A DNA stretch of 64,000 bases. It comes from an uncultured Actinomycetes bacterium. Lineage in GTDB: Bacteria > Actinomycetota > Actinomycetes > Nanopelagicales > Nanopelagicaceae. Position numbers and translations under genes: made by a program. The notes under the pieces are model-generated. The model was given only the letters and a program-made list of their open reading frames with translations. It had not been told where the DNA came from and searched no databases. The DNA lies in contig CAILSO010000019.1 of assembly GCA_903836945.1 (NCBI GenBank), positions 62,001 through 126,000 on the forward strand, written 5' to 3'. This document shows positions 34,778 through 36,935 of the stretch, piece by piece (the stretch's first letter is position 1; the number at the start of each line of letters is the position of its first letter).

Positions 34778-36220
34778 ATGCGTAGAGCGAAGATAGTTTG
34801 CACAATGGGTCCAGCGGTTGAAGCACCGGAGAAGGTGGATCAATTGATTGCCGCCGGAATGAATATGGCGCGCTTAAATCTCTCTCACGGCGGTTATCCC
34901 GAACATCAGGCGCGACTTGATGCGGTGCGAAGTGCTGCCGCCAAGGCGGGTAAAGCTGTTGCGGTATTGGTTGACTTACAAGGACCAAAGATTCGCCTTG
35001 CTCGCTTTGAAAATGGGCCGCATGATTTAGCTCGTGGTGACATATTTACTATTACCACCGATGAAGTACCCGGAACCAAAGAACGAGTTGGCACCACTTA
35101 CAAAGGGTTGCCAGGGGATTGCAGGCCAGGAGATCGAATTTTGATCGATGATGGCAAGGTCACTGTCGAAGTTATTGAAGTTAAAGGAAATGATGTTGTA
35201 ACAAAGTGCATCGAACCTGGCGCGGTCAGCAACAATAAAGGCATCAACCTTCCAGGTGTTGCGGTCTCAGTTCCGGCGCTTTCGGAAAAGGATCGCGAAG
35301 ATTTACGTTGGGGACTTCGCGCAGGTGCCGATTTCATCGCGCTCTCATTTGTTCGAAATGCAAAAGATATTGAAGATGTGCATCGCATCATGGATGAAGA
35401 AGGCATTCGTCGTCCAGTGATTGCAAAGATCGAGAAGCCACAAGCGGTCGATAACTTAGAAGAGATCGTCGCCGCATTCGATGGAATTATGGTTGCTCGC
35501 GGAGATCTCGGAGTTGAGATGCCAATTGAGGAAGTGCCGCTAGTTCAAAAGCGCTGCATTACTTTGGCCCGCGATGCCGCTAAGCCGGTAATTGTTGCAA
35601 CTCAAATGTTGGATTCGATGATCACAAACTCTCGTCCAACTCGTGCGGAATCAACCGACTGCGCAAATGCGGTTCTAGATGGCGCCGATGCTTTGATGTT
35701 ATCTGGTGAGACCAGCGTCGGTGACTTTGCGATTGAAGCTGTAGTAACAATGGCTCGCATCATCGAACGCACCGAAGAAGTAATGCTTGATCGAATTCCA
35801 GCCCTCTCGCATGCACCAAAGACAAAGGGCGGCGCTATTACAAAGGCAGCCGTAGATGTTGGTGCAATTGTCGATGCCAAATACTTAGTTGCATTTACTC
35901 AAAGTGGAGATTCAGCTCGTCGAATGTCGCGCTTGCGTTCGCCAATTAAAATTCTTGCACTAACCCCAGAAACCTCGGTTTATAACCAATTAGCGCTTTC
36001 TTGGGGTGTTGAACCAATGATTACCCCAATGGTTTCTCATACCGATGAGATGGTTAAGCAGGTTGATGCAATTTTGATCGATTCACATCGAGTTCAAAAA
36101 GGTGAAAATGTGGTGATAGTGGCCGGTTCGCCTCCTGGAATTCCTGGAAGTACAAATGCCATGCGCGTGCACCGCGTAGGTGATGCCGTTGAAGGCATCG
36201 CAGCTGCCTACCGTAAATAA
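34778..36220 (+). CDS. pyk: Pyruvate kinase
   Basis: AKIVCTMGPA, MNMARLNLSHG, MVARGDLGVEMP, ATQMLDSM motifs. Confidence 0.98.
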   Translation: MRRAKIVCTMGPAVEAPEKVDQLIAAGMNMARLNLSHGGYPEHQARLDAVRSAAAKAGKAVAVLVDLQGPKIRLARFENGPHDLARGDIFTITTDEVPGTKERVGTTYKGLPGDCRPGDRILIDDGKVTVEVIEVKGNDVVTKCIEPGAVSNNKGINLPGVAVSVPALSEKDREDLRWGLRAGADFIALSFVRNAKDIEDVHRIMDEEGIRRPVIAKIEKPQAVDNLEEIVAAFDGIMVARGDLGVEMPIEEVPLVQKRCITLARDAAKPVIVATQMLDSMITNSRPTRAESTDCANAVLDGADALMLSGETSVGDFAIEAVVTMARIIERTEEVMLDRIPALSHAPKTKGGAITKAAVDVGAIVDAKYLVAFTQSGDSARRMSRLRSPIKILALTPETSVYNQLALSWGVEPMITPMVSHTDEMVKQVDAILIDSHRVQKGENVVIVAGSPPGIPGSTNAMRVHRVGDAVEGIAAAYRK

Positions 36221-36264
36221 TCTACGTAGTTAGAGTCGATTTCGATCAGTTAGAATTGTCGGAC

Positions 36265-36337
36265 GCCTCGGTACTCCAACGGTAGAGAGGGCGGACTCAA
36301 AATCCGCACAGTGTCGGTTCAAATCCGACTCGAGGCA
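36265..36337 (+). tRNA. tRNA with CAA anticodon (Leu, UUG codon), short 5-nt variable region (class I fold)
   Basis: Acceptor GCCTCGG/TCGAGGC; anticodon arm GCGGA-CTCAAAA-TCCGC; variable ACAGT; T arm GTCGG-TTCAAAT-CCGAC; discriminator A; CCA not encoded. Confidence 0.88.
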
Positions 36338-36359
36338 CATGAGCAAACAAGAGCCAACT

Positions 36360-36935
36360 ATGCCGGCACACATACTTGTTGCCGAAGATGAGGCTTTGAT
36401 TCGATTAGACCTAGTTGAAATGCTCACCGAAGCCGGTTACGAAGTTATTGCCCAAGCAACAAATGGGGTAGAGGCAATTGCTCTCGCTAAAGAATTTAAG
36501 CCAGATTTGGCAATTCTTGATGTAAAGATGCCAGAGTTAGATGGAATATCTGCGGCAGAACAAATTATTGAAATAGCACCAGTATTAATGTTGACTGCAT
36601 TTAGCCAGAAGGAATTAGTTGAACGCGCACGTGATGCGGGCGTGATGGCATATGTGGTAAAACCTTTTAGCATTAATGATTTGACCCCAGCCATTGAGAT
36701 TGCGATGAGTCGCCACCTTCAGATGCGATCGCTTCGAGATGAGGTGGCCGATCTCCACGAAAGACTTGAGACCCGCAAGGTCATTGATCGAGCCAAGGGA
36801 ATTTTAATGCAGGCGCTAAACCTCACTGAACCAGCGGCCTTTAGTTGGATCCAGCGGGCGGCAATGGATCGGCGGATCAGCATGAAGGCCGTTGCCCAGG
36901 CGGTTATCTCGCCGGATTCGGTTCCAGAGCGCTAA
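36360..36935 (+). CDS. pdtaR: Response regulator with ANTAR RNA-binding domain (PdtaR-like)
   Basis: Receiver: VAEDEALIRLDL, LAILDVKMPELDG; C-terminal ANTAR: VIDRAKGILMQALNLTEPAAFSWIQRAAMDRR; start 36360 preferred to 36339. Confidence 0.92.
   Translation: MPAHILVAEDEALIRLDLVEMLTEAGYEVIAQATNGVEAIALAKEFKPDLAILDVKMPELDGISAAEQIIEIAPVLMLTAFSQKELVERARDAGVMAYVVKPFSINDLTPAIEIAMSRHLQMRSLRDEVADLHERLETRKVIDRAKGILMQALNLTEPAAFSWIQRAAMDRRISMKAVAQAVISPDSVPER

Follow-up and report, generated by a model that had tools for sequence, protein, structure and literature searches.

An uncultured actinobacterium of the Nanopelagicaceae has a tRNA gene with a leucine anticodon and a variable region of only 5 nt, where bacterial class II tRNA-Leu have 11-18 nt, and the question it raises is whether this is a working leucine tRNA whose long arm has been lost, a tRNA of other descent, or a regulatory element for the gene that follows it. 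The window analyzed, a stretch of 64,000 nucleotides, comes from an assembly of 1.26 Mb in 56 contigs that is about 90% complete. The relevant features are these:

34778..36220, + strand: pyk, pyruvate kinase, 480 aa (Pfam PK and PK_C; NCBIfam)
36251..36256, + strand: possible -10 element TAGAAT (TANNNT), just upstream of the tRNA
36265..36337, + strand: class I (short variable region) tRNA-Leu(CAA), CCA not encoded (ARAGORN, Rfam, fold, congeners)
36274..36290, + strand: leucine-type D region with 3-bp stem, C13.A22 mismatch, A14 A15, G18G19 and A20a G20b
36298..36300, + strand: anticodon CAA, reading UUG (ARAGORN; the anticodon begins at tRNA position 34)
36308..36312, + strand: variable region ACAGT, 5 nt (from the sequence; 13-15 nt in class II leucine tRNAs of the same genus)
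36338..36338, + strand: single base C between A73 and the next start codon (ATG or GTG is flush in 25 of 27 family loci)
36339..36935, + strand: pdtaR-like response regulator with ANTAR RNA-binding domain, 198 aa (Pfam Response_reg 1.2e-25, ANTAR 1.6e-22)

ARAGORN calls a tRNA-Leu(CAA) at 36265-36338, and Rfam RF00005 matches 36265-36337 with 55.7 bits against a gathering score of 29 (E 2.2e-10), in an alignment that spans the whole model, positions 1-71. The minimum-energy fold is a cloverleaf (z = -2.5), so covariance scoring and folding agree with the clean cloverleaf and CAA anticodon proposed from the letters. The acceptor stem GCCUCGG/UCGAGGC has 7 bp, the D region is CUCCAACGGUAGAGAGG, the anticodon stem-loop is GCGGA-CUCAAAA-UCCGC with ACAGU as the variable region, and the T arm GUCGG-UUCAAAU-CCGAC has a 5-bp stem followed by the discriminator A73, a single C and the ATG of the next gene. 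Loop, anticodon and variable region are thus as the sequence-only reading had them. A 7-bp acceptor and 5-bp T stem rule out the 8/4 or 9/3 partition of the allo-tRNA fold; allo-tRNAs and other non-canonical bacterial tRNAs are likewise unusual, some with leucine anticodons (PMC7609411), but here the acceptor branch is the ordinary 7/5 one and a long arm is missing. With five nucleotides its variable region falls in the class I range (4-5 nt) and well short of a class II arm (about 11 nt or more). Its D stem has 3 bp instead of the 4 bp usual in class I, and positions 13 and 22 are unpaired in all members of a comparison set of class I UUR-Leu tRNAs, 127 distinct sequences drawn from actinobacterial loci and a small number of others.

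The D stem is one of several respects in which the molecule is built like a leucine tRNA. With the bacterial class II tRNA-Leu (E. coli leuX CAA and leuZ UAA; Streptomyces bldA UAA) it shares a leucine anticodon, A73, the hinge pairs U8-A14 and A15-U48, G18G19, A20a and the 3-bp D stem with a 13.22 mismatch, which is C.A in the short form and G.A (mostly) or A.A in class II. In the comparison set A73 is present in 127/127, A15, U8 and G18G19 each in 126/127, A14 in 125/127, A20a in 124/127 and C.A at 13.22 in 126/127; the search pattern itself demanded U48, the loop CTYAAA and AGTGT, which are for that reason not independent evidence. The impression that D-loop and A73 were leucine-like was therefore borne out on parsing. 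In E. coli the leucine determinants are A73, A15-U48, G18G19 and A20a, and activity persists in variants without the long arm, while for the short-armed human mitochondrial tRNA-Leu(UUR) the main ones are A73 and A14 (PMC9976931); the tRNA in the window has every determinant named there for either system. Animal mitochondrial tRNA-Leu(UUR) also resembles it in form, with a short variable region, UUR decoding and A14 and A73 kept (PMC9976931), but the window tRNA is bacterial and cytosolic, has a normal stable cloverleaf, and coexists with CUN isoacceptors that keep the long arm.

Only one leucyl-tRNA synthetase (LeuRS) scores above the family cut-off in each of eight genomes examined, and a second, dedicated LeuRS is rejected on that count. 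The single housekeeping enzyme would charge the short tRNA through A73 and the D-loop and hinge elements U8-A14, A15-U48, G18G19 and A20a, none of which needs a long arm, and the charged CAA tRNA would then read UUG as leucine. Charging by the ordinary LeuRS is what we infer from the retained determinants. That UUG does mean leucine follows from a comparison of the TTG sites of pyk, pdtaR and leuS with orthologs no more than 75% identical, scored by aligned weight. The share of CTN-leucine in the orthologs is 65% at TTG sites, against 64% at TTA, 58% at CTT and 71% at CTC, so TTG aligns like the other leucine codons and a reassignment of UUG is rejected.

Of the leucine codons in five genes from around the locus, 35% are UUR, and the leucine tRNA sets of relatives indicate what reads them. 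Forty tRNAs were found in the relative G014, four of them for leucine: class II GAG and UAG, whose variable regions measure 15 and 13 nt, and class I UAA and CAA with 5 nt each. The lists of long tRNAs from G010 and G022 give the same make-up, the same four recur in G179, a relative that is complete in a single contig, and in G090 and G112 the CUN tRNAs are again class II with both UAA and CAA class I. No second CAA tRNA was found in the well-assembled relatives, where the UAA partner is short-armed, and a second copy elsewhere was rejected on scanning the window's genome and the relatives' tRNA sets. In the assembly that contains the window no UAA partner turned up, even with three mismatches allowed; since UUA codons are used, this is most likely an assembly gap, and the full leucine set is for that reason taken from relatives. 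As there is no long-armed copy in those whose sets were checked, the window tRNA is, judged from these sets, the only UUG decoder of its lineage. A collapsed variable arm, one of two possibilities first raised for this gene, is well supported by the identity elements, the leucine-type D arm and the congeners described below, and there is high confidence in a normal, sole UUG-decoding tRNA-Leu whose arm has shrunk to five bases and which LeuRS would charge through arm-independent determinants.

The alternative that survives best is that another class I isotype, lysine or threonine for instance, had its anticodon mutated to CAA, its leucine features being convergent or the amino acid carried being a different one. 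When the variable region is left out, tRNAs for Thr, Lys and other non-leucine class I isotypes are as similar to it as class II Leu, and nearest-neighbor comparison on that basis does not mark class II Leu as its closest kin outside the D arm. The 3-bp D stem, the near-invariant C13.A22 mismatch and the D-loop AA..GGYAGA are nevertheless those of class II Leu, A73 is invariant, and UUG sites are leucine sites, which together make such a switch unlikely. The short form would thus have descended from a class II tRNA-Leu and not have converged on one.

The other possibility first raised, a regulatory or alternative tRNA, draws on the position of the gene. In its stronger form the tRNA, or a tRNA-like 5′ leader of pdtaR, would stand outside bulk translation, and in favor of this it lies flush against the gene for an ANTAR RNA-binding regulator with a junction that is kept in the family. 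The placement between pyk and the regulator, with ATG at 36339, was correctly seen, C36338 being the sole base after A73, and the downstream neighbor is of PdtaR type in having both a receiver and an ANTAR domain. The statement that a tRNA-Leu lies near pdtaR in other actinobacteria also proved right, as pdtaR is within 4 kb in 93 of 98 short-armed CAA loci, and the tRNA is short there too. Outside the window's family, however, pyk is usually followed by the tRNA on the opposite strand and then by pdtaR, and the tRNA therefore cannot be a general pdtaR leader. The complete set of leucine identity elements is retained, and the lack of another CAA tRNA in well-assembled relatives makes this one the ordinary UUG decoder, so that a purely regulatory role is very improbable.

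A pseudogene or an assembly artefact with a deleted arm has next to no probability, given that 20 of 24 further congeneric genomes have the same 73 bases without a single change, between flanks that differ (the four genomes with no match being 60-87% complete), that orthologs occur across many families, and that the stems of the 127 short-armed sequences pair with many compensatory changes, pair 28-42 being CG, GC, UA, AU or GU and pair 10-25 GC, UA, CG or AU. As the orthologs are short-armed as well, the suggestion that they might show a normal arm, this copy being a sequencing error, fails. Candidatus Planktophila versatilis is among the named matching records, from which the window's relatives would be freshwater actinobacteria of the Nanopelagicales type.

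The short-armed tRNA-Leu(UUR) is far from confined to this family. A strict pattern, CTYAAANNNNNNNNAGTGTNGGTTCRA, matched at least 240 of 395 genomes sampled from the class, with none for the reversed control, and at least 53 of 297 in a sample spread over the phylum. Named matches include Mycobacterium, Mycolicibacterium, Nocardia, Gordonia, Rhodococcus, Corynebacterium, Streptomyces, Micromonospora, Salinispora, Bifidobacterium, Microbacterium and Arthrobacter, and by ARAGORN the anticodon is UAA in 73 loci and CAA in 71 among the matches listed. The two isoacceptors need not be of the same form. In the Streptomyces-like G063 UAA is long (bldA-like) and CAA short (pattern match G063:C12:3161), and G118 and G072 have the reverse; both forms for one anticodon were not seen together in any of the checked genomes. 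The CUN tRNAs are long-armed in the checked cellular genomes except for an odd UAG call in G063, a 76-nt tRNA-Leu of low score (39.7 bits; L286:101-176) that is perhaps on a mobile element. L153, from a Mycobacterium metagenome-assembled genome (MAG), and L225 each have two short-armed UUR-Leu matches a few kb apart. Three matches among those listed come from non-actinobacterial MAGs; one of them, a contig labeled Rokubacteria (L155:384-670), has Gly(GCC)-Cys(GCA)-Leu(UAA) with the leucine tRNA short-armed, possibly by arm loss in another phylum or else through misbinning or contamination. The order is that of glyW-cysT-leuZ in E. coli. A DNA search for E. coli relatives gave no match.

Viral contigs (IMG/VR, L317-L436) have at least 120 stretches with a short-armed tRNA-Leu of the same signature, 98 with UAA and 21 with CAA among the matches listed. 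It occurs too in phages of Prochlorococcus, Lactobacillus and Pseudomonas (L477-L479); phage LP65 has three short leucine tRNAs (UAA, UAG and CAA), and in Pseudomonas phage ZC03 one tRNA cluster has a UAG copy that is long and a UAA copy that is short. In the M. abscessus prophages prophiGD02-2 and prophiGD90-1 (H29, H30) the first 47 bases are an 85% match to the 3′ part of the tRNA, which suggests integration into a short-armed tRNA-Leu gene.

The literature touches on such tRNAs without treating them as a class. A 2023 review has short-armed tRNA-Leu confined to animal mitochondria, a limit that is contradicted by many actinobacteria (mycobacteria and streptomycetes included) and by phages. 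A report on the M. tuberculosis MenT3 toxin gives tRNA-Leu-2, -3 and -5 a long variable loop (PMC11541572); that only these of the leucine set are singled out in this way is consistent with two short UUR tRNAs, as in G090, which the report implies in passing and does not discuss. In a mycobacterial genome paper a short-loop tRNA-Leu(TAG) appears in an extra tRNA gene cluster, the long form being called the expected one (PMC6582537). In the open-access literature searched, no paper was found that treats the short-armed tRNA-Leu(UUR) of bacteria as a class of its own, though an earlier one in a subscription journal is possible. The presumed job of the short-armed tRNA-Leu(CAA) is an ordinary one; its form is unexpected, and its distribution is broad.

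What is peculiar to the window's family is the junction. Here the tRNA is codirectional with pdtaR and ends one base before ATG or GTG in 25 of 27 loci, and 24 of those 25 start codons open straight into the PdtaR frame. In 22 of the 27 a TANNNT box begins 10-22 nt before the tRNA (shuffle mean 6.8, maximum 14); a sigma-70 scan found no full consensus promoter. Cutting of a joint transcript after A73 would yield a pdtaR mRNA that begins CAUG and is nearly leaderless, and this is suggested because the only room for a normal ribosome-binding site is inside the acceptor stem of the tRNA. Two other tRNA genes of the same genome also end close to a start codon: tRNA-Asn(GTT) (L012:1501-1574) one base before the ATG of a 292-aa ORF, and tRNA-Ala(GGC) (L018, minus strand, 1501-1573) 3 nt before that of a 324-aa ORF, dehydrogenase-like when named by eye; both junctions are absent from G014.

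Short-armed leucine tRNAs offer natural, living cases for testing how LeuRS recognizes its substrate when the arm is missing. They also matter for tRNA-seq pipelines in which arm length is used to sort tRNA-Leu, for antimycobacterial work directed at LeuRS, and for UUA/UUG (bldA) biology in Streptomyces, whose two isoacceptors are in different structural classes. The larger proposal, that of a widespread second class of tRNA-Leu(UUR) in Actinobacteria and in phages of unrelated hosts together with a tRNA that acts as the processing signal for pdtaR, is put forward tentatively, with the odds somewhat against it as a whole. In human mitochondrial DNA a protein gene follows tRNA-Leu(UUR) almost flush. 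If the proposal is true, pdtaR would in this family have a nearly leaderless message tied to transcription of a tRNA, a bacterial parallel of mitochondrial tRNA punctuation.
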